Part shown: positions 14,638 through 33,161 of the stretch, one piece after another
Position numbering within the stretch: the stretch's first letter is position 1
Layout of the letters: each line of letters begins with the position of its first letter
Assembly: GCF_006539865.1 (NCBI RefSeq)
Contig: NZ_BJNV01000054.1
Span: forward strand, 1-34,653
Direction: 5' to 3'
Length of the DNA stretch: 34,653 nucleotides
Source: Zoogloea ramigera
GTDB taxonomy: Bacteria; Pseudomonadota; Gammaproteobacteria; Burkholderiales; Rhodocyclaceae
The notes under the pieces: model-generated
The model's database searches: none
What the model saw: the letters and a program-made list of their open reading frames with translations, nothing else
What the model was told of the DNA's origin: nothing
Position numbers and translations under genes: made by a program

Positions 14638-16260
14638 ATGCGCAAACTCGCCGATACGCCTATTTCCCTGCGCCTGACCGGTGCGATCTGGTTGATGCTC
14701 CTGTTCGCCTGGGGCGGCATGATCGTGTGGGAGACCCGCGTCAATCGTGAAACGGCCATCGACCAGGCGCAGGATTTCGCCCGCAGCATCCATGAGATGA
14801 CCATGGCGGGCCTCACCGGCATGATGATCACCGGCACGGTCGGGCAGCGGGAGGTGTTCCTCGATCAGATCAAGCAGCTGTCTGTCATCAAGGACCTCGA
14901 AGTGATCCGCGGTGAGGGCGTCAGCCGCCAGTATGGCCCGGGCAACCGGCCGATCCCGCAGCTCGACGCCGACGAGCGGGAGGCTCTCGAGAGGCGCGCC
15001 GAGGTGCTGCGGGTCGAGCGCGATCCGGTAGCCGGCGAGTATCTGCGCGTCGTCATGCCGGCGCTGGCGTCCGAGAATTACCTGGGCAAGAACTGCATCG
15101 CCTGCCATCAGGTTCCGGCGGGGACGCCGCTGGGGCTGGTGAGCATGAAGGTGTCCCTCGACAAGGTGAACGCCGCTGTCGACACCTTCATGTGGAAGAG
15201 CATCGTGAGCGCGTTGGTGGTGTCGCTGCCGCTGATCGCCTTCGTGGTGTTTTTCGTGCGGCGTTTTGTCGTGGGGCCGCTCACCGAGATGAACGCCAGC
15301 CTCGCCGAGATCGCCAAGGGTGAGGGTGATCTCACCCGGCGCCTTCAGGTGGCAGGGCGCGACGAGATCGGCCAGACCGCGGCCACCTTCAACGCGATGC
15401 TCGCCACGATTGCACAGCTGGTCCGCCAGGTCGGTGAGTCGGCCGGGCAGGTCACGAGTTCGGCGCGTCAGTTGTCGAGCGGGGCGGTCCAGGTCGCCGA
15501 CGGCTCGCGGCGCCAGAACGAACATTCCGGGCAGGTCGCCGCGGCCGTCGAGAACGTCGCGGAGGGTATCGCCAGCGTCGCCGCGAGCGCCGAGCGCGTG
15601 CATGGGCGCTCCCAGGAGAGCCTGCGCCGCTCCGGCGAGGGCGCCCAGACCCTGGTCCGCCTGGTTGCCGAGGTGGATCAGGCGGAGGCCGCCGTGCGGC
15701 AAATGGCCGACTCGGTCGAGCACTTCGTCGACTCCTCGACCTCGATCACCACGATGACCCAGGAGGTTCGCGAGATCGCCGAGCAGACCAATCTGCTGGC
15801 GCTCAACGCGGCCATCGAGGCGGCCCGCGCCGGCGAGCAGGGGCGCGGCTTCGCGGTGGTTGCCGACGAGGTACGCAAGCTGGCCGAAAAGTCGGCCCGC
15901 TCGGCGGGCGACATCGACAGCGTCACCACCAGTCTGTCACGGCAGTCGGTGGCCGTGCGCGAGGCGGTCCACGCCGGCCTCGAACATCTGGAGTCCAGCC
16001 GGGCTGCGGTCGCGATGGTGTCGACGGCCATCGCGGCGGCCAACGAGTCGGTTGTGGCGGTGGGCCATGGCCTCGACGAGATTGCCGAGGCGACCGAACA
16101 GCAGCGCACCGCCAGCGCCGAGGTGGCGGCAGGGATTGAGGCGATCGCCGAGATGGCCCGCGACAACAACGCCGCCGTCGAGACGACGGCCGATGCCGCC
16201 CGCGAGATGGAAAGGCTGGCCGTCGAGCTTCAGCAGGCGGTGTCCCGTTTCCGCGTCTGA
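14638..16260 (+). CDS. Methyl-accepting chemotaxis protein with a periplasmic c-type heme motif
   Basis: Transmembrane chemoreceptor of 540 residues that should signal through CheA/CheW to the flagellar motor. The order is TM1 at about 13-32, a periplasmic sensor domain at about 33-185, TM2 at about 188-206, HAMP ([25 protein letters not shown] split around 222-245), then a cytoplasmic signalling hairpin with [21 protein letters not shown] and the [17 protein letters not shown] tip. Just before TM2 the sensor has CIACH at residues 153-157, a CxxCH heme c attachment motif. Heme-binding chemoreceptors of this kind are known from anaerobic and metal-reducing bacteria as redox or gas sensors. No C-terminal NWETF-like pentapeptide is present. 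A sigma-28-like promoter precedes it. Confidence 0.93.
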
Positions 16261-21536: not shown

Positions 21537-21878
21537 ATGCACGAAATGTCGCTGGCGGAAGGCATCCGCCAGATCGTCGAGGACGCGGGGCGCAGGCAGG
21601 GCTTCCGAAAGGTGAAAACGGTTGTGCTGGAGATCGGCCAGCTCGCCGCCCTCGAGCCCGACAGCCTGCGCTTCTGCTTTGATCTGGTGATGAAAGACAG
21701 CATCGCCGAGGGCGCGGTGCTGCAGATCGACAGCCTGCCGGGGCGCGGCTGGTGTGCCCGGTGCGCCGAGACGGTGCCGATTGCGGCCCTGTATGATGCC
21801 TGCCCGCGCTGCGGCAGCTACCAGGTGCAGGCGAGCGGCGGCACCGAGATGCGGGTCAAGGAGCTTGAAATCGAGTGA
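21537..21878 (+). CDS. hypA: Hydrogenase nickel-incorporation metallochaperone HypA
   Basis: Nickel chaperone that works with HypB to deliver Ni to the [NiFe]-hydrogenase large subunit. It has 113 residues, the normal length. The N-terminal MHEMSLAEGI supplies the conserved His2 nickel ligand. The zinc site is formed by WCARC and ACPRCGS in the C-terminal half. The start at ATG 21537 is fixed by the MHE motif. It is the first gene of the hyp cluster, with hypB following after 12 bases. Confidence 0.97.
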   Translation: MHEMSLAEGIRQIVEDAGRRQGFRKVKTVVLEIGQLAALEPDSLRFCFDLVMKDSIAEGAVLQIDSLPGRGWCARCAETVPIAALYDACPRCGSYQVQASGGTEMRVKELEIE

Positions 21879-21890
21879 AGGCGGTTTGAA

Positions 21891-22877
21891 ATGTGCAATG
21901 TGTGCGGCTGTGGCAGCGGGGAGACCCGCATCGAAGGTGAAGGGGCGAAACCTGCCTATCGTTGGGCGCCGGTCGGGCGCCGCCAGGCGACCCGCGCCCA
22001 GGCTGAGGCCGCCCCTCCGGCGTCTGCGCACGCGGCGGGCGGGGAGGCGGGCGAGGGGAGCCTGCACTTCGGCCATGGCCCGGCGGGCGCCCACGCGCCG
22101 GGCATGAGCCAGGCCCAGATGGTGAAGATCGAGCAGGACATCCTCGCCAAAAACGATGGCTTCGCCGCCGACAACCGCCGCTGGCTCGCCGAGCGGGGCG
22201 TTCTGGCCCTCAACCTGGTGTCCAGCCCCGGCTCCGGCAAGACCAGCCTGCTGGTGCGCACGATCGCCGCGCTGCAGTCCCTGCCCCAGCCGGTGCCGGT
22301 GAGCGTCGTCGAGGGCGACCAGCAAACCAGCTTCGACGCCGAGCGCATCCGTGCCACCGGCGCTCCGGCGCTGCAGATCAACACCGGCAAGGGCTGTCAT
22401 CTGGATGCGCGGATGGTCGGGATCGCCATGGAGAGGCTCGCGCCGCCCGAAGGCGGCGTGCTGCTCGTCGAGAACGTGGGCAACCTGGTCTGCCCGGCGG
22501 CCTTCGACCTGGGCGAGGCGGCCAAGGTGGTCGTGCTGTCGGTCACCGAGGGCGAGGACAAACCCCTCAAATACCCCGACATGTTCGCCGCCGCCAGCCT
22601 GATGCTGGTGAACAAGATCGACCTCCTGCCCCACCTGAACTTCGACGTGAACAAGACCATCGAATTTGCGCTGCGGGTCAACCCGCGCCTTCAAGTGATC
22701 TCGCTGTCAGCCAGCACCGGTGAGGGTTTCGAGGCCTGGCTGGACTGGCTGCTGACCCGCCGGAAGGCCGCCCGCATCGCCCGGGCCGAGCGGCTGGCGG
22801 GGCTGCGTGACGCCGCTGCCGATCCCGTTGCGGAGGCTGACCTCGAGCCCGCCGCCAACAGCGGCAGGGCAGGGTGA
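21891..22877 (+). CDS. hypB: Hydrogenase nickel-incorporation GTPase HypB
   Basis: GTPase that loads nickel into the hydrogenase precursor together with HypA. It has 328 residues. The N-terminal CNVCGCG gives the CxxCGC high-affinity nickel site. A linker of about 70 residues with a few histidines ([14 protein letters not shown]) follows, poorer in His than in rhizobial HypB. The G domain has P-loop [11 protein letters not shown], the metal-site segment [19 protein letters not shown], and G4 NKIDLLP. The C-terminus runs on about 35 residues past the G domain. hypF starts 7 bases after the stop. Confidence 0.97.
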
Positions 22878-22884
22878 GCGTCCG

Positions 22885-25266
22885 ATGCTGATCGTCGTCG
22901 ACCCGACCCGCGTCGCCCGCCGGCTGCGGGTGCGCGGGGTGGTCCAGGGGGTGGGCTTCCGGCCCTTCGTCTATCGCTATGCCCGCAGCCTCGGCCTCGT
23001 CGGCTGGGTGCGCAATGACGGTGGCGGGGTGGAGATCGAGGTGCAGGGCAGCGAGCCGCTGGTCGAAGCCTTCACCCGCGGTCTGGTGGCCGAGGCGCCG
23101 CCCCTGGCGCGCATCGACACCGTCGAGCCGGAGGTGATCCCGCCCGAGGACGGGCGCCGTGATTTCGCGATCCTGCCCAGCGCCGGCGGCACCGTGGCCA
23201 CCGCCATCGGGCCCGATGTAGGCGTCTGCCCGGCGTGCCTCGCCGAGCTGTTCGACCCCGCCGACCGCCGCTGGCGTTACCCCTTCATCAACTGCACCCA
23301 CTGCGGGCCGCGCTACACCATCACCCGCAGCCTGCCCTACGACCGCGCCCGCACCAGCATGGCCGGCTTCGAGCAGTGCCCCGCGTGCGCCACCGAATAT
23401 GCCCACCCGGGCGACCGGCGTTTCCATGCCGAGCCCAACGCCTGCCCGGTGTGCGGGCCGCGGCTCAGCCTGTTCGAGCCCCACGGCGTGCCGGCCCTGG
23501 CGCGCGATGCGATCGCCGAGACCCTGCGCCGCATCCGCCTGGGCGAGATCGTGGCGATCAAGAGCCTGGGTGGTTTTCACCTGGCCTGCGACGCGGCCAA
23601 CGCTGCGGCCGTGGCCCGCCTGAGGGCATCCAAGCAGCGCCCCGACCGGCCCCTGGCGCTGATGCTCGCCAATCTTGCCAGCGTCGCCCCGCTGGCCCGG
23701 CTGGGCGGCGCGGCGGCAGCCACCCTCGAGAGCGCCGAGCGCTCCATCGTGCTGCTCGACAAGCAGGCCGGCTTCGACGCCCGCCTGCCCGGCATCGCGC
23801 CGGGGCTCGACGAAGTGGGCATCATGCTGCCCTACACGCCGCTGCATTACCTGCTCTTCCACGAGGCCGCCGGCCGCCCCGCCGGCACCGCCTGGCTCGC
23901 CGAAGCCCAGCCGCTGGCCCTGGTGATGACCAGCGCCAACCCCCACGGCGAGCCCCTCGTGCAGGGCAACGACGAAGCCTTCGAGCGTCTCGCCGAGATC
24001 GCCGACGTGCTCCTGATGCACGACCGGGACATCGTCGTACGCTGCGACGATTCGGTGCTCCGCCTGCGCTCCGACCTGCCCGTCGGGCCGGGTGAGGCCG
24101 CCGGGGCGGGCGTCCAGTTCCTGCGCCGGGCGCGGGGTTTCACGCCGCTCGCGATGCCGCTTCAAGAGGCCGGCCCGCCGGTGCTCGCCTTCGGCGCTCA
24201 TCTCAAAGCCACCCTGTGCATGGCCCGCGGGCGCGAGGCCTTTCTATCCCAGCACATCGGCAACCTCAACAGCCCGGCCGCCTGCGCCGCGCTCGACGAG
24301 GCGGCCGAGCACCTGCAGACCATCCTGTCGGTGCGCCCGGCGGCGGTGGCCCACGACGCTCACCCCGACTACTACTCCACCCGCGCGGCGCTCGAGATGG
24401 CGGCGCGCCTGGGCGTGCCGGCGGTCGCCGTCCAGCATCACCACGCCCACATCGCGGCCGTGTGCGCCGAGCATAGTCTCGATGGCCCGGTGCTCGGCTT
24501 CGCCGCCGACGGGGTCGGCCTCGGCACCGACGGCATGCCCTGGGGCGGCGAACTGTTGCAGGTGGACGGGGCCGAATTCCAGCGCCTGGGGCATCTCGCC
24601 CCGCTGCCCCTGCCCGGGGGCGACCGCGCGGCCCGCGAACCGTGGCGCATGGCCTGTGCCGTGCTGCACGCCCTCGGAGGCGCCGACGAGGCTGCCCGGC
24701 GTTTCGCCCACCAGCCCCATGTGGCTCAGGTGCTCGACATGCTGACGCGCGGCACCCGCTGCCCACCGACCACCAGCCTCGGCCGCTGCTTCGACGCCGC
24801 CGCCGGCTTGCTGGGCCTGTGCGAGACGATGACGTTCGAAGGTCAGGCGGCCATGCTCCTCGAGACCGCCGCCCGAGCCTATGGCAAGGCGCTGCCCCTG
24901 CCCGGCGGCTATCACATCGACCGTCGCTCGCCCGACGGGCCCCTTGTGCTCAACCTTTACCCGCTCTTCAATCAGCTGGCCGAAGAAACCACGCCCGAGC
25001 GCGGTGCCGCCCATTTCCACGCCAGCCTCGTCGACGGGCTTGAGCACTGGATCGGCGAAGCCGCCGAGGCCAGCGGGCTGCGGCGGGTGGCGCTGGCCGG
25101 CGGATGCCTGCACAACCGCGTGCTGGCTGCCGGCCTGCGCAGCAAGCTGATGGCCCGCGGGCTGGCCGTCTTCGAGGCCCAGCACGTGCCCCCTGGCGAC
25201 GGCGGCATCGCCCTCGGCCAGGCCTGGGTCGCCCGGGCGCAGCTCATGACGGGGCCTGCGACTTGA
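22885..25266 (+). CDS. hypF: Carbamoyltransferase HypF
   Basis: Makes the thiocarbamate precursor of the cyanide ligands, transferring a carbamoyl group from carbamoyl phosphate through carbamoyl-AMP to HypE. It has 793 residues from ATG 22885. Domain order is acylphosphatase-like (VQGVGFRPFVYRYARSLGL, about 10-95), two zinc-finger loops (CPACLAELF..., CTHCGP, CPACATEY, CPVCGP, about 112-192), a YrdC-like domain (IKSLGGFHLACDA...), then the Kae1-like carbamoyltransferase domain with HHHAHIAAVCAEH and LAGGCLHNRVL. All parts are intact. The Cdd1-like gene overlaps its stop by 4 bases. Confidence 0.97.
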   Translation: MLIVVDPTRVARRLRVRGVVQGVGFRPFVYRYARSLGLVGWVRNDGGGVEIEVQGSEPLVEAFTRGLVAEAPPLARIDTVEPEVIPPEDGRRDFAILPSAGGTVATAIGPDVGVCPACLAELFDPADRRWRYPFINCTHCGPRYTITRSLPYDRARTSMAGFEQCPACATEYAHPGDRRFHAEPNACPVCGPRLSLFEPHGVPALARDAIAETLRRIRLGEIVAIKSLGGFHLACDAANAAAVARLRASKQRPDRPLALMLANLASVAPLARLGGAAAATLESAERSIVLLDKQAGFDARLPGIAPGLDEVGIMLPYTPLHYLLFHEAAGRPAGTAWLAEAQPLALVMTSANPHGEPLVQGNDEAFERLAEIADVLLMHDRDIVVRCDDSVLRLRSDLPVGPGEAAGAGVQFLRRARGFTPLAMPLQEAGPPVLAFGAHLKATLCMARGREAFLSQHIGNLNSPAACAALDEAAEHLQTILSVRPAAVAHDAHPDYYSTRAALEMAARLGVPAVAVQHHHAHIAAVCAEHSLDGPVLGFAADGVGLGTDGMPWGGELLQVDGAEFQRLGHLAPLPLPGGDRAAREPWRMACAVLHALGGADEAARRFAHQPHVAQVLDMLTRGTRCPPTTSLGRCFDAAAGLLGLCETMTFEGQAAMLLETAARAYGKALPLPGGYHIDRRSPDGPLVLNLYPLFNQLAEETTPERGAAHFHASLVDGLEHWIGEAAEASGLRRVALAGGCLHNRVLAAGLRSKLMARGLAVFEAQHVPPGDGGIALGQAWVARAQLMTGPAT

Positions 25267-25559
25267 AAAAATCGGCTCACACGCCGGGCAGCGTGCGCCG
25301 GCTCGAAGACATCCCCAACGTCGGTTGCGCGGTGGCCGATGAACTGCGGGCCCTCGGCATCACGGCGCCGATTGGGCTCGTCGGCCGCGACCCGTGGGCC
25401 CTGTACGCCGAGCTCAACGCCCGCCGCGGCTTCTGCCACGACCCCTGCCTGCTCGACACCTTCATCGCCGCGACGCGCTTCATGGCCGGCGAGCCGGCCC
25501 GGCCCTGGTGGCATTACACGGCCGAGCGCAAGGCGCGCCAGGCCGCCAGCAAGGACTGA
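25263..25559 (+). CDS. Small helix-hairpin-helix protein, Cdd1 (pathogenicity-locus) type, inside the hyp operon
   Basis: 98 residues. [22 protein letters not shown] is a helix-hairpin-helix motif. The continuation [23 protein letters not shown] and WWHYTAERK matches the arrangement of the Cdd1 family of small HhH proteins, whose function is not established (DNA or RNA contact through the HhH is the usual guess). The start is TTG at 25263 in a TTGA overlap with the hypF stop, and hypC starts 4 bases after its stop, so it is translated as part of the hyp operon. It is not one of the six standard Hyp proteins. Confidence 0.8.
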
Positions 25560-25563
25560 TCCC

Positions 25564-25806
25564 ATGTGCCTCGCCATCCCGACCCGCGTGGTCGAACTCC
25601 TCCCCGACAACCAGGCCCTGGTAGACCTGGGCGGCGTTCGCAAGGCCATCTCCCTCGAACTGGTGGACGATGTCGCGGTGGGTGATTACGTGATCATCCA
25701 CGTAGGCTACGCGCTCACCCGGCTCGACCCCGACGAGGCGGCCCGCACGCTGGCGCTTATGGCCGAGGCCGGCCTCGACGTGGGCGGCGCGGGGGCGTGC
25801 CCATGA
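25564..25806 (+). CDS. hypC: Hydrogenase maturation chaperone HypC
   Basis: Small OB-fold chaperone that carries the Fe(CN)2CO unit with HypD and then binds the large-subunit precursor. It has 80 residues. The start is fixed by MCLAIPTRV, where Cys2 is the essential iron-binding residue. The core [32 protein letters not shown] is typical. The stop overlaps the hypD start as ATGA. Confidence 0.96.
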
Positions 25807-26939
25807 AATACGTGGACGCGTTTCGTGACGGCGAACTGGCCCGCGGCATTGCCGCCGCCATCGCCCGCGAGGCCAGCCCGGCGCGCCGCTACGCCTTCAT
25901 GGAGTTCTGCGGCGGCCACACCCACGCGATCTCCCGCTACGGCCTGGCCGACCTGCTGCCGCCCCAGGTCCGGATGATCCATGGCCCGGGCTGCCCGGTC
26001 TGCGTGCTGCCCATCGGGCGCATCGACCAGGCGATCCGGCTGGCCCTCGACGAGGGCGTCACCCTGTGCACCTACGCCGACACGCTGCGGGTGCCGGCCT
26101 CGGCGGGGCTCACGATGCTCCGCGCTCGGGCGCAGGGTGCCGACATCCGCATGGTCTATTCGGCCGCCGAGGCGCTGGCGCTGGCCCGCCGCGAACCCGG
26201 GCGGCAGGTTGTCTTTTTTGCGATCGGCTTCGAGACCACCACGCCGCCCACTGCGCTGTTGATCCGCCAGGCGGCGGCGCTGGGCCTCGCCAACTTCAGC
26301 GTGCTGTGCTGCCATGTGCTGACCCCGCCGGCGATCGCCGCGATCCTCGACGCCCCCGAAGCCCGGGCGCCGGGCGGCGTGGCCCTCGACGGCTTCATCG
26401 GCCCGGCCCACGTGAGCACCGTGATCGGCAGCCGCCCCTACGCCCGCTTTGCCGCCGAGTACCGGAAACCGGTGGTGATCGCCGGCTTCGAGCCCCTCGA
26501 CGTGATGCAGGCGATCCTCATGCTGGTACGCCAGGTGAACGATGGCCGCGCCGAGGTCGAGAACGAGTTCACCCGGGCCGTCACCGACGACGGCAACCTC
26601 AAGGCCCAGGCGCTGATGGCGGATGTCTTCGCGCTGCGCGAGAGTTTCGAATGGCGCGGCCTCGGGGTGCTGCCCCGCTCGGCGCTGCGCATCCACGAGC
26701 GCTACGCCGCCTTCGACGCCGAGGCCCGCTTCGGGCTCGTCTATGTGCCGGTGGCCGACCACAAGGCCTGCGAATGCGGGCCCATCCTGCGTGGGGTCAA
26801 GGCGCCCCTCGACTGCAAGCTGTTCGGCACCGTGTGCACGCCCGACACGCCGATGGGGGCCTGCATGGTGTCCTCCGAGGGCGCCTGCGCCGCCCACTAC
26901 ACCTACGGGCGTGTCCGCGACCCAGCCGGCCCCCACTGA
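25803..26939 (+). CDS. hypD: Hydrogenase maturation protein HypD
   Basis: [4Fe-4S] protein that is the scaffold for assembling the Fe(CN)2CO moiety with HypC and HypE. It has 378 residues from ATG 25803, which overlaps the hypC stop by 4 bases. An in-frame GTG two codons earlier is less likely. Visible motifs are [12 protein letters not shown] (with the Cys that contacts the iron), [10 protein letters not shown] and [10 protein letters not shown]. The C-terminal cluster region is [40 protein letters not shown]. All expected cysteines are present. Confidence 0.97.
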
Positions 26940-26947
26940 TTTCTGCT

Positions 26948-26974
26948 TCAGATTTCTCGCCTCGCCGCCGATAG
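26948..26974 (+). promoter_or_regulatory. Sigma-28 (FliA)-like promoter before the FIST chemoreceptor
   Basis: TCAGATTT, 11 bases, GCCGATAG. The -10 element matches the GCCGATAA consensus at 7 of 8 positions and the -35 element matches TAAAGTTT at 5 of 8, with exact spacing. It lies in the 77-base gap after hypD and ends 42 bases before the GTG start. The best of three like elements in the window. Confidence 0.65.
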
Positions 26975-27016
26975 AGCTTCAAATGGTCTGCACCAGGCCG
27001 AGCGAGGAGACAACAA

Positions 27017-29047
27017 GTGAAGTTTTTCAGCAAACTGCGCGGAACGTCCATGTCGGGCGTCGCCATGCTGCAGTGCCGTGCCGCAGAGCTCGAGCAGGCG
27101 CTTGCCGCCCTGTCGATCAAGCCGACTTTCATCAACGCCTACGTGTCGCCCCACCTCGACATCGATCAGGTTGCCCGCACGGTGACCCGCCGCTTCCCCG
27201 GGGTGCCGATCATGCTGTGCTCCACCGCCGGTGAGCTGTGTTCGGCGGGCGAAGGCCTCTACTGCAACACCGGCGATCAGTGGGGCAGGGTGGTGCTGCA
27301 GTGCTTCGATGCCTCGCTGATCGCCCAGGCCAGCGTTGTGGCGGTGCCCCTTGGTTGCGAGGACATCCGCCGGGGCGACGTCGACATGCCGGTCAAGGAG
27401 CGGGTCGCCCGGATCGCCCGCAACATCCAGGCGCTGCAGGTGGGCATGGAGATCGACCACCGGGATACGCTGGCGTGCGTCCTCTTTGACGGCCTGTCGG
27501 CCTCCGAATCCTTCTTCATGGAGGCGCTGTACGACTCCGGGCGCTTCCCGTGCCTGTTCGTGGGCGGCTCGGCAGGGGGCAAGTTCGACTTCCGCAACAC
27601 CTGGCTCCACGACGGCACCCGCCGCCTCGAGAACCATGCCCTGATCGCCTTCCTGAAGGTCGCCCGGGGCACCCGCTTCGGGGTGCTGAAGAGCCAGAAC
27701 TTCGTGCCCGACGGCCCGCACTTCCCGGTGCTCCACGCCTCCCTCGAACAGCGCTACGTGAGCGAAGTGATCGACGCCGATGGGCGCGTGGTGTCCTTCA
27801 TCGACGCCCTGTGCGCGCATTTTCGCTGCGCCCCGCGGGAGCTCGAAGCCAAGCTGGCCGACTTTTCCTTTGCGATCCAGGTCGGCAAGGAGATCTTCGT
27901 GCGCTCGGTGGTGCGGGTCGATGTCGAGGCCAGGCGGGTGTATTTCTACTGCGACATCTCCCCGGGCGACGACCTGCTGCTGGTGCGCCGGACCAAGCTG
28001 GTGCAGAGTACCGAAGAGGATTTCCGGCGTTTCATGGCCGGCAAGCCCGGTGCGCCGGTGGCCGGCATCCTCAACGACTGCATCCTGCGGCGGCTCTACA
28101 ACGACAAGGACCTCGCCCATGTTCGCCAGGCGCTGCCCTGCGACCAACTGGCGGGCTTCTCGACCTTCGGCGAGATCCTCGGCCTCAACCTCAATCAGAC
28201 CCTCACCGCGGTGTTCTTCTTCCGGGTGCCGGAAGGCGCGGGCTTCCGTGACGACTACGTGGACTACTTCGTGGCGCACTACGGCGAGTTCAAGGCATTT
28301 TTCCTGCGTCGGCAGGGGGCCAAGCTGGCCGGCTTGTCCAAGCTCATCGTCACCCAGATCGACGACTACCAGGCCCAGCGCTTCGACAGCCAGCTCGACG
28401 CGTCGAGTTTCGACGAGGGCATTGCGCCGGTGGTGCATGGCCTCAACAGCCTGGGCCGCACATTGAAGTCGTCCCGCGACCTGCGCGAGAGCACCGCCCT
28501 GCAGCTCGAAGAATGCGCGGGCGACCTGTATGCCTCGATGGGCGTGCTCGCCGCCACCACCGACGAGCAGGCGAAGGTGGTGGCCCAGGTGGGCGACACC
28601 GTCGAGGAGCTGTCCCGCCAGGCCGGAGACGCCGCCGGCAGCGCGCGCAACCTGGCCCATTCCAGTGGCCGGATCCAGGGCGTCGTCGAGATCATCCAGC
28701 AGATCGCCGACCAGACCAACCTGCTCGCCCTCAACGCCGCCATCGAGGCCGCCCGCGCGGGCGAGGCCGGTCGCGGCTTCGCGGTGGTGGCCGACGAGGT
28801 GCGCAAGCTGGCCGAGAAGTCGCGCACCAGCGCCGGCGAGATCGGCGCCGACATCTCGACCCTGGCAGCCGAGATCAACCGGGTTGCCCAGGAGATCGGG
28901 CGCCAGGCGGAGGACGTGTCTGGCGTGTCGGGCATGTTGCAGGATATCGAGGCCTTCAGCAGCAAGACCACCGAGAGCGCCGACCATGCACGGCTTGTCG
29001 CCGATACACTCAAGAACCTCACCGACAATCAGCTGAGGCAGGCCTGA
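27017..29047 (+). CDS. Soluble FIST-domain methyl-accepting chemotaxis protein
   Basis: Cytoplasmic chemoreceptor of 676 residues lying between hypD and hypE. The N-terminal half is a FIST sensor: the hallmark CSTAGEL at 68-74, GLSASESFF and [12 protein letters not shown], then a FIST_C region to about residue 420 ([11 protein letters not shown]). After a linker, a short MCP signalling hairpin follows, with [25 protein letters not shown] around 563-590 and RKLAEKS. No signal peptide, transmembrane segment or HAMP is seen. FIST domains bind small ligands in signalling proteins, and one subgroup (NosP) binds heme and NO. The ligand here is unknown. The start is GTG 27017 with GAGGA eight bases upstream. 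It has its own sigma-28-like promoter, and its position suggests taxis linked to hydrogen or redox metabolism. Confidence 0.92.
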
Positions 29048-29094
29048 GCCACGGCGCGTCCGTGGCGGTCGGGGCTGCCGCGGCGCGCACCATC

Positions 29095-30141
29095 ATGAAA
29101 AAAAACTACGTCCGCCCCCTCGATCTCGCCTGCGGTGCCGTCGATCTCTCCCACGGCGGAGGGGGGCGTGCCATGCTTCAGCTCATCAGCGAGGTCTTCG
29201 GCCGCGCCTTCGACAACGAATGGCTGCGCCGGGGCGACGACGGAGCCGTGCTGCCGGCGCCCGCCGCCGGCGAGCGGCTGGTGATCGCCACCGACGCCCA
29301 TGTGGTCTCGCCACTGTTCTTTCCGGGTGGCGACATCGGCTGCCTCGCCGTGCACGGCACCATCAACGATGTGGCGATGATGGGCGCCCGGCCGCTCTAT
29401 CTGGCGGCCAGCTTCATCCTCGAAGAAGGCTTCCCCCTGGCCGAGCTCGCCCGCATCGTCGCCAGCATGGCCGCCGCCGCGAAGGAGGCGGGCGTGCCGG
29501 TGGTGACCGGCGACACCAAAGTGGTGGAAAAGGGCAAGGGTGACGGCATCTTCATCACCACCACCGGTGTCGGTGCGCTGCCGGCCGGGCGCGAGCTGTC
29601 GGGCGCCAACGCCAGGCCCGGCGACGCGGTGATCGTCTCGGGCACGCTGGGCGACCACGGCATGGCGATCATGGCCCGGCGCGAAGGGCTTGCCTTCGAG
29701 TCCGGGATCCGTTCCGACACGGCGGCGCTCCACGGTCTCGTCGAGTCTGCGCTGGCGGCGGTGCCGGGCCTGCGGGTGCTGCGCGACCCGACCCGCGGCG
29801 GCCTGGCGGCCACCCTCAACGAGATCGCGCGCCAGTCCGGCGTCGGCATCGTCCTCGACGAAATGGCGCTGCCCGTCAATCCCCAGGTGGCGGCGGCCTG
29901 CGAGTTCCTCGGCCTCGACCCGCTGCACATCGCCAACGAAGGCAAGCTCATCGCCATCTGCGCGGCGGACGAGGCCGACGCCCTCGTGGCCGCGCTGCGC
30001 GCCCACCCCCTCGGCGCCCGGGCGGCGCGGGTCGGCGAGGTGTGTGCCGACGAGCGCTGTTTCGTGCAGATGAAGACCGCCCTCGGTGGTCGCCGCATGG
30101 TCGACTGGCTGGCGAGCGAACAACTGCCGCGCATCTGCTGA
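29095..30141 (+). CDS. hypE: Hydrogenase maturation protein HypE
   Basis: Dehydrates the C-terminal thiocarbamate, made on it by HypF, to a thiocyanate that donates CN to the iron in HypC-HypD. It has 348 residues from ATG 29095. It matches the PurM-like ATP-binding fold: PLDLACGAVDLSHGGGGRAM, FFPGGDIGCLAVHGTINDVAMMGA, TGDTKVVEKGKGDGIFI and RDPTRGGLAATLNEIA. It ends in PRIC with the essential C-terminal Cys. No clear Shine-Dalgarno precedes the ATG, and an in-frame GTG at 29062 is a weaker alternative. It is separated from hypD by the chemoreceptor gene and so may be read partly from that gene's promoter. Confidence 0.97.
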   Translation: MKKNYVRPLDLACGAVDLSHGGGGRAMLQLISEVFGRAFDNEWLRRGDDGAVLPAPAAGERLVIATDAHVVSPLFFPGGDIGCLAVHGTINDVAMMGARPLYLAASFILEEGFPLAELARIVASMAAAAKEAGVPVVTGDTKVVEKGKGDGIFITTTGVGALPAGRELSGANARPGDAVIVSGTLGDHGMAIMARREGLAFESGIRSDTAALHGLVESALAAVPGLRVLRDPTRGGLAATLNEIARQSGVGIVLDEMALPVNPQVAAACEFLGLDPLHIANEGKLIAICAADEADALVAALRAHPLGARAARVGEVCADERCFVQMKTALGGRRMVDWLASEQLPRIC

Positions 30142-30208: not shown

Positions 30209-31222
30209 ATGAAAATCTCTGAATCCAGCCTGGAGCTGCAGGCCAGCAGCCTCAAGGCGACCCGTCTCGAGGTGAAGGAAAGCCTGTCGGCCTGGGTCGG
30301 CCAGGGCGCTGCGGTGGAGCGGGGGGCCCGGGCCTTGCCCGAGGTGCGTGTCTCCGAGGCTGCCCGGGAGGCCTTGCAGGCTGACGAAAGCGCCGCGACG
30401 GGGGCTGCGGCGGAGGATGCGCCGCTGGACCCGAAGCTGGAGCTGGTCAGGGCCATCGTCGAGATGCTCAGCGGGCGCTCGATCCGGGTGCTTTCGAGCG
30501 AGGACATCCAGGCCGATGCGGCGGCAGAGGCGCCGGCAGGGCAGGGCGGCAGCCGGCCTGCCTTCGGCATCGAATATTCCCGCAGTGAAACCATCGAGCA
30601 CTACGAGGCAGCCAGCTTCGAGGCCGCCGGTACGGTGCGCACCGCCGACGGGCGTGACATTTCTTTCAGCCTGAGCCTGTCGATGCAGCGCTACGAGAGC
30701 GAGACCCGCAGCCTCAGCCTGCGGGCCGGCAGCGCTGCGGCGAAAGACCCGCTGGTGCTCAACTTCGGCGCCGACGCGGCGAGCCTGCGCAGCCAGCGTT
30801 TCAGCTTCGACTTGCTGGGCAATGGCGACGAGGTGGACATGCCCTTGCTCGGTGAGGGCAGCGGTTTTCTGGTGCTCGACGCCGTCGGCGGCGGGCGTGT
30901 CGAATCCGGGCGCCAGCTCTTCGGGCCGACCAGCGGTGACGGCTTCGCCGATCTGGCCGCCTACGACAGCGACGCCAACGGCTGGATCGACGAGGCCGAC
31001 CCGGTGTTCGGCCGCCTCGGTGTGTGGACGCCGGACGCCGAGGGCGGTGGTGCGGTGCGCAGCCTGGCGGAGGCTGGTGTGGGCGCCCTGGGGCTCGACC
31101 GGGTCGCCACGCCCTTTGCGCTCAAGGATGGCACTGAGCTGGGGGCGGTCCGCAGCTCGGGCGTGTATCTTCGCGAGGCTGGCGGCGCGGGCACCCTGCA
31201 GCAGGTGGATGTGGTCGTCTGA
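30209..31222 (+). CDS. EF-hand/VCBS-like protein of unknown function
   Basis: 337 residues. There is no signal peptide. The N-terminus (MKISESSLELQASS, then KESLSAWVG) resembles a family of proteobacterial proteins annotated as VCBS repeat-containing. The C-terminal half has a complete EF-hand loop DSDANGWIDEAD (253-264), preceded by two degenerate calcium-loop-like stretches near 201-214 and 224-234, and the family phrase ELFGPxSGDGF appears as QLFGPTSGDGF. Calcium binding is likely for the complete loop. The cellular role is unknown. It has a good RBS (GAGGTGG), a sigma-28-like promoter, and its stop codon abuts the stop of the convergent thioesterase gene. Confidence 0.82.
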   Translation: MKISESSLELQASSLKATRLEVKESLSAWVGQGAAVERGARALPEVRVSEAAREALQADESAATGAAAEDAPLDPKLELVRAIVEMLSGRSIRVLSSEDIQADAAAEAPAGQGGSRPAFGIEYSRSETIEHYEAASFEAAGTVRTADGRDISFSLSLSMQRYESETRSLSLRAGSAAAKDPLVLNFGADAASLRSQRFSFDLLGNGDEVDMPLLGEGSGFLVLDAVGGGRVESGRQLFGPTSGDGFADLAAYDSDANGWIDEADPVFGRLGVWTPDAEGGGAVRSLAEAGVGALGLDRVATPFALKDGTELGAVRSSGVYLREAGGAGTLQQVDVVV

Positions 31223-31648
31223 TCAGCCCTGGGTACGCTGCCGGAAGCCTTCGGGCACCGGCGCCGGCCGTCTCGCCGTGTAGTCGAAGAACAGAATGCC
31301 GGTCTTGCCCCGGGCGACCTCGCGGCCGCTGGCCTTGTCGCTGGCCTGCCACATCAGGTCGCAGCCGTACTTGTTGAAGTCGGCGGGGGTGATCTGGAAA
31401 ACCAGCGTCTCGCCGTGGAATGCTTCGGATTTGTACTGCATGGCGGCATCCGCGACGACGATGCCTACGCCTTCCACGTCCAGTTCGGTATAGCCGAGGG
31501 ACTTGAAAAAACGCACCCGGGCCTCGGAGAGCAGGCCGATCAGGGCGGCATTGTCGAGGTGATGGCCGTAGTTGATGTGGCCGATGTAGATCGGGATGTC
31601 GGTGGTGAACAGAAAATGCTCGGGGAGCTCGATGATCACGCGGGCCAT
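31223..31648 (-). CDS. Hotdog-fold acyl-CoA thioesterase
   Basis: 141 residues from ATG at 31648, with AAGGA upstream. The sequence fits the 4-hydroxybenzoyl-CoA/YbgC-type thioesterase family: IYIGHINYGHHLDNAALIGLLSEARVRFF contains the helix and the conserved His/Asp area, followed by YKSEAFHGETLVFQ. The open frame extends 43 codons upstream, but those overlap nikR on the other strand and lack family resemblance. The substrate is unknown. The gene converges on the EF-hand protein gene with no spacer, TGA and TCA meeting as TGATCA, and is divergent from nikR. Confidence 0.86.
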   Translation of the reverse strand: MARVIIELPEHFLFTTDIPIYIGHINYGHHLDNAALIGLLSEARVRFFKSLGYTELDVEGVGIVVADAAMQYKSEAFHGETLVFQITPADFNKYGCDLMWQASDKASGREVARGKTGILFFDYTARRPAPVPEGFRQRTQG

Positions 31649-31760
31649 GGACGCGTCCTTGGGTGGTTTGTCGGTCGGCGGATTATCGCAGGGCCGGCCG
31701 ATTGCCGGCTCGAGATGTGGCGGGCAGAATGATGTGCTCACCCCGATCCGGAGCCTGCCC

Positions 31761-32237
31761 GTGGAACGCTTCACCATCTCCCTCGACGAAGAGCTGGCCC
31801 AGGCCTTCGATGCGCTGATTGCCGCCCGGGGCTATTCCAACCGCTCTGAGGCGGTGCGCGACATCCTGCGCAGCCAGATCGAGGCCAGCCGCCTGGCTCG
31901 GGAGGACGCCCCCCACTGCATCGCCAACCTGTCTTACGTCTTCAATCACCACGAGCGGGAACTGGCCGAGCGGGTGACCCACGACCAGCACGCCCACCAC
32001 GACCTCTGCGTGGCGACCCTGCATGCCCACCTGGATCACGACAACTGCATGGAAAGCGTGATCCTGCGGGGGCCGACCGACGCGGTGCGGGCTTTCGCCG
32101 ATGCCCTCATCGCCCGCCCCGGCATCCGCCACGGGCAGTTGAATCTGGTGAGCGCAGAATATCGGGAGCAGCCCCACAGCCATTCCCACGCCGACGGGCA
32201 CAGTCGTTCCCACGGTCACTATCGGCCGCGGAGCTGA
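31761..32237 (+). CDS. nikR: Nickel-responsive transcriptional regulator NikR
   Basis: Ribbon-helix-helix repressor that binds operator DNA when nickel is present. It has 158 residues from GTG 31761, with GGAG seven bases upstream. The DNA-binding RHH is ERFTISLDEELAQAFDALIAARGYSNRSEAVRDILR. The ACT-type metal domain keeps all four high-affinity ligands: His77, His88, His90 and Cys96 (pattern H...LHAH...C). The C-terminus carries an extra tail of about 20 residues with seven histidines. It sits between hyp genes and a NiCoT permease, so it probably controls nickel uptake. No canonical GTATGA-N16-TCATAC operator was found. Confidence 0.95.
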   Translation: MERFTISLDEELAQAFDALIAARGYSNRSEAVRDILRSQIEASRLAREDAPHCIANLSYVFNHHERELAERVTHDQHAHHDLCVATLHAHLDHDNCMESVILRGPTDAVRAFADALIARPGIRHGQLNLVSAEYREQPHSHSHADGHSRSHGHYRPRS

Positions 32238-32339: not shown

Positions 32340-33161
32340 ATGTCTCCCCTGCCTGCCGACAGCTTTGCCCTCGTCCTGCTGGTATTCGTGCTGGGCGTGA
32401 AGCACGGCTTCGACGCGGACCACCTGGCCACCATCGACGGCTTGACGCGCTACAACGCCCGGGCCCGGCCGCGGATGGCGCGCTTCTGTGGCGGCTTGTT
32501 CTCGCTGGGGCATGGGGCGGTGGTCGTGGCCATCGCGTTGGGGGTGAGCCTGCTCTCCGGCGGCTGGTCGGCGCCGGAATGGCTGGAATTTTCAGGGGCC
32601 TGGATTTCGATTGCTTTCCTGGTGCTGCTGGGCGTGCTCAACCTGCGCGCAGTCTTCGCCGCAGAGGCCCATGAGGTGGTGCGCCCGGTGGGCCTGAAGG
32701 GGCGCTGGCTGGGGCGTCTTGCGCGGGTCTCGGACCCGGCTGGCGTCGCCATGGTCGGGGCGCTGTTCGCCCTGTCCTTCGACACCGTGAGCCAGGCTGC
32801 GCTGTTCGCCGTGGCCGGTGTGCAGGCCGGCGGCTGGCAGCACGCGCTGGGGCTGGGTCTGGTCTTCATGGCCGGGATGCTGCTCGCCGATGGGGCCAAC
32901 GGCCTGTGGCTGGCCCGTCTCATCGCCCGGGCCGACAGCGCGGCGCGCATCGCGTCGCGGGTGATGGCCGTGGCGGTGGCGGGCGTCAGCCTGCTGGTGG
33001 CCGCCTACGGCGCCGCCCGGTTGGTCCTGCCCGGGCTTGAGGCGTGGGGCGAGGGCAGGGAGCTGCTGCTCGGCGCCAGCGTGATCGCGGTGGTGTTTGC
33101 GAGTTTCCTGGTCGGCCTCCATCTGGCGCGCCGCAGTGGTCTGCGCCAGGGCGTCGTCTGA
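32340..33161 (+). CDS. NiCoT-family nickel/cobalt permease
   Basis: Inner-membrane importer of 273 residues, related to HoxN/NixA high-affinity nickel permeases. The family signature HxxDxDH appears as KHGFDADHLATIDGLTRY in the first helix region. Later helices contain FSLGHGAVV and LFALSFDT. About seven to eight hydrophobic segments are visible. ATG 32340 is chosen because it begins at the first hydrophobic region, while the open frame reaches back to 32295. The gene lies 102 bases after nikR. That spacer has an AT-rich CTAAAATAAAAG stretch at about 32302 which could be a -10 region but lacks a clear -35. Ni would serve the hydrogenase-maturation genes nearby; cobalt cannot be excluded. Confidence 0.9.
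   Translation: MSPLPADSFALVLLVFVLGVKHGFDADHLATIDGLTRYNARARPRMARFCGGLFSLGHGAVVVAIALGVSLLSGGWSAPEWLEFSGAWISIAFLVLLGVLNLRAVFAAEAHEVVRPVGLKGRWLGRLARVSDPAGVAMVGALFALSFDTVSQAALFAVAGVQAGGWQHALGLGLVFMAGMLLADGANGLWLARLIARADSAARIASRVMAVAVAGVSLLVAAYGAARLVLPGLEAWGEGRELLLGASVIAVVFASFLVGLHLARRSGLRQGVV

Follow-up and report, generated by a model that had tools for sequence, protein, structure and literature searches.

Why should a gene for a chemoreceptor lie in the middle of a set of hydrogenase maturation genes? The question is raised by a contig of Zoogloea ramigera (NZ_BJNV01000054.1, assembly GCF_006539865.1), whose 34,653 nucleotides, analysed as a whole, are referred to here as the window. A sequence-only reading of this DNA had described a 676-residue fusion of FIST with the signalling module of a methyl-accepting chemotaxis protein (MCP) between hypD and hypE, and the open reading frame (ORF) coordinates and Pfam domains bear this out. 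The gene (27017..29047, + strand) starts with GTG, preceded by AGGAG, and lies 77 bases after hypD (25803..26939, +; Pfam HypD, 497 bits, 4.8e-149) and 47 bases before hypE (29095..30141, +; ATG start; Pfam AIRS and AIRS_C), with the whole hyp cluster on the same strand. Its product carries a FIST N domain (residues 38-250; 27128..27766, +), a FIST_C domain (residues 269-387; 27821..28177, +) and an MCPsignal hairpin match (residues 538-668; 28628..29020, +; 118 bits, cut-off 34.6) with the tip glutamate E583. We propose, with a probability of roughly 0.48, that the protein is a cytoplasmic chemoreceptor of the energy or redox type, made together with the hydrogenase maturation proteins.

The placement is not confined to this genome. 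A survey for FIST-MCP genes beside hyp genes, of the kind that the sequence-only reading had proposed, found the arrangement in three genera, together with a distant case in a fourth. Among 23 Zoogloea genomes, searched at E<=1e-40, the receptor was present in 19 and HypD in 22; G208 (72% complete) had neither. The receptor directly follows hypD in 17 of the 19 receptor-bearing genomes, and hypE follows in the 16 loci whose contig continues (that of G221 ends), in 6 of them beyond one more ORF. The wider survey covered 395 genomes of the family at E<=1e-100 and identified orthologs in 43 of them, belonging to 11 of 68 genera (18 Zoogloea and 25 others). The neighbourhoods of all 25 non-Zoogloea orthologs were retrieved and scanned for hyp genes, and the embedded arrangement was found in 3/3 receptor-bearing genomes of genus g165 and in the single one of g150. 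In a sample of the order, 9 of 200 genomes gave a match at E<=1e-40; outside the family, G166 alone exceeded 50% identity. In every embedded locus seen the receptor is co-directional with the hyp genes, at identities of 72-94% within the genus and 61-63% between genera. The receptor gene is under purifying selection: the ratio of nonsynonymous to synonymous substitution rates (dN/dS) was 0.12-0.36 over seven pairs, each formed with another Zoogloea. We consider the placement more than chance, since it is shared by 17/19 receptor-bearing Zoogloea genomes and by two further genera and since the gene shows this dN/dS. The mere co-occurrence of receptor and hypD was not counted as evidence, since HypD was found in 93 of 121 family genomes. 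HypD is also present in G262 (g150) and G324 (g165), which were presumably included in the search and are not among the receptor matches. In G324, ~700 bases lie between hypD and hypE (L196 1512-2211), with no trace of a receptor there. The embedded cluster of G423 (L155 5902-7008) has a hypF match spanning 376 of 793 residues, so this hypF may be short or broken.

The fourth genus, g170, is represented by G282, one locus among 10 distant FIST-MCP loci examined. Its FIST-MCP (664 aa, with FIST, FIST_C and MCPsignal by Pfam) is 35% identical to the Z. ramigera receptor and lies 30 bases downstream of hypB, at the end of the run hypA, moaA-like gene, hypB, receptor (L107 6867-11173, L247); HypA and HypB both exceed their NCBIfam cut-offs. 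Divergent from this run are ORFs matching a proton antiporter, NADHdh, Oxidored_q6 (20-kDa) and Complex1_49kDa/NiFeSe_Hases, the NiFeSe_Hases match being limited to model positions 1-68. By our own label, these genes resemble a membrane-bound, group 4-like hydrogenase. A complete hyp set, with hypD joined to hypE, is found on another contig of the same genome, and the receptor falls in a far branch of the receptor tree. The association of this FIST-MCP with hydrogenase genes is suggestive and is not a statistic; because of it we raised the probability of the energy or redox reading from 0.42 to 0.48. Since three genera share it and one more has a far relative of the receptor next to hypB, the hyp placement, as read from the gene orders, holds more firmly than an observation made on one sequence.

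In the receptor tree, in which long branches including that of G423 were flagged, the Zoogloea receptors form a group with support of 100/100, and those of g165 and g150 form another (97/95) that also contains free receptors of g162 and g154; other free receptors fall between the two. A tree forcing all embedded receptors plus that of G209 into one clade was rejected (log-likelihood 45.5 lower; approximately unbiased test, p 0.00133), and one holding g165 and g150 together was not (p 0.256), the groups for these tests having been set by gene order after the receptor tree had been viewed. On this analysis the embedded receptors do not form one clade. At least three changes of state are required on the tree; these may be one gain and two losses, and the embedded state may have arisen once, in an ancestor, and been lost later. 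The HypD tree mixes embedded with non-embedded loci, with seven changes, mostly inside genus groups; its bootstrap had not converged.

The protein itself has the features expected of a soluble receptor. Its maximum 19-residue hydropathy is 1.76, compared with 2.86 for the MCP encoded at 14638-16260, so no transmembrane segment is evident, and the earlier description of the protein as cytoplasmic stands. Ten of 55 FIST-MCPs exceed 1.6 on this scale, with a top value of 1.8. On these grounds the protein is classed as a soluble, presumably cytoplasmic, chemoreceptor of the MCP superfamily. The tip of the hairpin, which would face CheA and CheW, is intact, and its residues are invariant or nearly so across 53 FIST-MCPs; the hairpin and its tip suggest that it may couple to CheA. 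N194 and L373 alone distinguish embedded from free receptors in this set. FIST-MCP fusions were reportedly noted already when the FIST domain was originally defined.

The hairpin is short. The receptor has 93 residues after E583. Ten further receptors encoded by the genome have 140-142, a length that we take to mark the 36H class; of the remaining genome receptors with a tip, one has 94 residues and the others 164-316 (20 match rows). The hairpin of the FIST-MCP falls short of the full 36H length, as judged from length alone. The exact tip motif is present in 49 of the 55 FIST-MCPs, with 87-94 residues following it in 38, 108-113 in ten and 176 in one. One paper describes methylation as observed only in 44H and 36H receptors (PMC6829392), and with so short a hairpin classical adaptation of this receptor is doubtful. 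A methylation consensus matched none of the 49 tip-bearing FIST-MCP hairpins (0/49), but it failed with most of the genome's other receptors as well.

The sequence-only reading had pointed to NosP-type FIST proteins, which would make the receptor a heme/NO sensor coupled to chemotaxis. The FIST half does align with positions 9-366 of the 368 of the NosP model (NCBIfam NF041558; E 1.4e-35), and it is a distant NosP homologue fused to an MCP hairpin. Its score is 123 bits, far under the equivalog cut-off of 450. An alignment of 14 FIST-MCPs with five NosP relatives, of which four exceed the cut-off and one scores 432 bits, shows that C312 and C355 of the receptor correspond to cysteines invariant in the five, whereas the two histidines invariant in them, candidate heme ligands, are replaced by N228 and N391. 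The five relatives all come from one order. N228 is kept in 52/53 FIST-MCPs and N391 in 47/53, the others having Pro (4) or His (2) at the latter position. As both histidines are Asn and the score is so low, heme/NO sensing of the NosP type finds no support, and we give it hardly any credence. FIST and NosP are treated in PMC8846402 and PMC8738867. A FIST receptor that lacks the NosP histidines would be useful for finding FIST ligands besides heme or NO.

Searches of known structures gave little guidance. The best Foldseek hit, SKP1-FBXO22, had an E value of 8e-3, and none reached E<=0.001; FBXO22 carries a FIST domain. Sequence searches of solved structures returned no relative (ribosomal L22 at E>=0.64 and two unrelated chains at 0.35 and 0.81).

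How such a receptor might work can be outlined as follows. The FIST/FIST_C half would bind an intracellular small molecule or sense the redox state, and the coiled-coil hairpin would relay its signal to a CheA-CheW complex. The gene is probably co-transcribed with those for hydrogenase maturation, and the receptor would then be present whenever hydrogenase is made. Most likely it reports the metabolic state, in terms of energy or redox, of a cell that is oxidizing hydrogen, in the manner of the soluble energy sensors TlpT and TlpD. Between positions 25000 and 31800, no sigma-70-like site and five terminator-like sites were found, none of the latter inside the two gaps flanking the receptor gene. 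A scan of the window with a sigma-54 consensus yielded 4 matches, compared with 16.4 in shuffles. The genome (4.6 Mb, 207 contigs) contains two NiFe-hydrogenase large-subunit ORFs (four match rows), both on other contigs and one of them near HoxF/HoxU-like ORFs. The receptor is its sole FIST match; MCP-type ORFs above the Pfam cut-off number 18 (20 match rows, two of them within one ORF and one below the cut-off).

The neighbours of receptors that are not embedded were inspected as well, many of these loci being judged from ORF reading alone. In genus g114 (L101 to L103, L149 to L154) the FIST-MCP ortholog and a second receptor gene are arranged tail to tail in 9/9 genomes; the one tested (L101) is a PAS-MCP. 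Of 32 non-embedded loci, 3 (G240, G312 and G027) have an aldehyde dehydrogenase gene (73-100% alike) within 4 kb, and all three also have a sigma-54-type regulator close by. In G301, G246 and G392 the receptor adjoins a two-component pair. Pyrroloquinoline quinone-dependent alcohol dehydrogenase is matched at a distance of 8-9 kb in G301 and G392 and of 5 kb in G312; G537 has an aldehyde:ferredoxin oxidoreductase ORF near the receptor, and G192 a cytochrome-oxidase subunit II ORF. The FIST-MCPs of G027, G312 and G192 are distant relatives and not orthologs. Twenty control stretches from the same genomes, each 17 kb long and placed at round coordinates, gave no more than three weak hits to the tested neighbour genes (PAS-MCP at 33-34%, aldehyde dehydrogenase at 30%); this control measures background only, the test genes having come from the receptor loci. 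Electron-donor and respiratory neighbours in some genera would fit an energy-state sensor, in a picture assembled after looking.

A number of observations weigh against an energy or redox receptor tied to hydrogenase maturation. A hyp gene was found around the receptor in 0/21 of the stretches retrieved from the eight other genera (in G374 the contig stops ~1.5 kb away), and the genome of G166, which carries an ortholog, lacks a HypD match. Within Zoogloea, hypD and hypE are joined (21-61 bases) and the receptor is missing in G206, G219 and G220, and in 6/16 two-sided loci a 118-aa ORF (L013 8134-8490; no Pfam or NCBIfam match) separates the receptor from hypE. Two further genomes, G205 (L108) and G209 (L109), keep hypF and the receptor at the ancestral site, from which hypA, B, C, D and E have disappeared. 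A different hypA, B, C, D, E set is located elsewhere in these genomes, and the G205 receptor frame is interrupted by a stop codon ahead of the tip. Unrelated ORFs fill the hypD-hypE gap in relatives. The receptor of g120 is accompanied by a solute-binding protein and a recombinase-family ORF, which are unrelated, and the neighbour genes discussed above were chosen after looking. Two AlphaFold2 runs of 13 sequences each gave poor models (mean predicted local distance difference test score, pLDDT, 54 and 61), too low to assess whether C75, C271, C312 and C355, which are kept in 51-53 of 53 FIST-MCPs, meet in space.

Several of these points favour the main and serious rival, which on balance we judge unlikely: that the protein is an ordinary cytoplasmic receptor for an unrelated intracellular ligand, whose gene lies between hypD and hypE because insertion is tolerated there, in an operon that is well expressed. 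Such a placement of convenience would account for the eight genera in which the receptor lies away from hyp genes, for the receptor of G209 still on site after most hyp genes have gone, and for other occupants of the same gap, namely the 118-aa ORF in part of Zoogloea, its 40% relative in G322 of g162 (L200 1985-2332) and a 181-aa ORF in G214. The last of these, membrane-protein-like by eye, lies in a second hyp set of that genome (L129 10185-10730). At 42 receptor-free sites (36 outside Zoogloea and 6 within), hypD and hypE are 8-125 bases apart in 32, 211-701 bases apart in 6, and no hypE was found in the stretch at 4; a joined pair is the usual state, yet the gap does accept inserts. Against convenience stand the insertion of the same receptor in two separate branches of the tree although most sites are joined, the co-direction kept in all embedded loci over the range of identities given above, and the far relative behind hypB in G282.

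A bolder alternative makes the protein a dedicated hydrogen-taxis receptor, which would read hydrogenase activity or a maturation or redox product and steer the cell to H2, FIST-MCPs having been recruited to hydrogenase genes repeatedly (between hypD and hypE in Zoogloea and g165/g150, behind hypB in g170). We regard this as rather improbable; the idea of H2 taxis is plausible. In a stricter version, held to be improbable, the receptor would sense hydrogen or hydrogenase activity directly, for example through contact with hydrogenase or one of the maturation proteins. In favour of direct sensing are the location of the gene, inside the maturation operon of three genera and after hypB in one more, and the hypX-, hoxA- and hoxB(C)-like genes that continue the cluster in the Zoogloea oleivorans group, g165 and g150; these were named by eye, and the three tested gave general or below-cut-off matches only. 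Genomes that lack a HypD match have FIST-MCPs too, an ortholog in G166 and distant relatives in G061, G027 and G094, which argues against direct sensing. A different output has also to be considered, since the genome has three CheA-type kinases and more than one is possible. Zoogloea forms flocs, and the receptor might feed a Che-like pathway for flocculation, cyclic di-GMP or gene expression instead of swimming. None of the three CheA matches is on the contig of the receptor and no kinase can be assigned to it, and we consider such a role very improbable. The energy or redox reading is the one that we prefer; the placement suggests, and does not prove, that these bacteria let the state of their hydrogen metabolism guide their swimming.

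Hydrogen taxis is, to our knowledge, known only in the methanogen Methanococcus maripaludis, and no description of a chemoreceptor tied to hydrogenase genes was found in the open-licence literature, judged on titles and abstract openings. The conserved FIST receptor of the hyp operon provides a defined gene for asking if bacteria steer by hydrogen metabolism. Several known systems resemble it in part, as far as the accessible portions of the respective papers describe them. TlpT of Rhodobacter sphaeroides is described as a 36H receptor, is encoded in a che operon and has been studied with candidate adaptation sites mutated, whereas the Z. ramigera receptor has a shorter hairpin, a FIST sensor and a hyp-operon location (PMC6829392). 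TlpD of Helicobacter pylori is a soluble energy sensor but has a C-terminal zinc-binding domain and an N-terminal part with no known sensor homology; hydrogenase is mentioned there only as an iron-sulfur protein (PMC4820699). The HoxBC-HoxJ-HoxA system would share H2-linked sensing, and several embedded clusters have hoxA- and hoxB(C)-like genes after hypE; the system differs in using a histidine kinase that acts on transcription, with no MCP hairpin (PMC6978683). Dechloromonas aromatica RCB has the order HypC, HypD, HypE, HypX, HoxA, HoxB, HoxC found in Z. oleivorans-type loci, but nothing is listed between HypD and HypE (PMC2907700).

The hyp cluster around the receptor had been called otherwise standard. 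The order hypA-B-F-C-D-E is indeed present and the maturation set complete, but the receptor gene is not its only addition: a Cdd1-family ORF is placed between hypF and hypC. HypF, HypC, HypD and HypE were recognized by Pfam, and hypA (21537..21878, +) and hypB (21891..22877, +) were named by eye and from the order shared with relatives. They are followed by hypF (22885..25266, +; Pfam HypF domains), the Cdd1-family ORF (25257..25559, +; PF11731, 94 bits; start position not settled), hypC (25564..25806, +; Pfam HupF_HypC), hypD, the receptor gene, hypE and a 337-aa ORF (30209-31222, +; no Pfam or NCBIfam match). The Cdd1-family ORF was matched in some Zoogloea loci and not in all. Beyond the 337-aa ORF lie a thioesterase-family ORF on the opposite strand, a NikR-type regulator (31596..32237, +; NikR_C and RHH_1), whose listed start overlaps the thioesterase ORF and whose true start is probably later, and a NicO-family nickel transporter (32340..33161, +; PF03824). 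The genes further out vary, with hypX-hoxA-hoxB(C) in some embedded clusters and the 337-aa ORF, nikR and NicO in others; the 337-aa ORF was found again near hyp genes in many Zoogloea loci.

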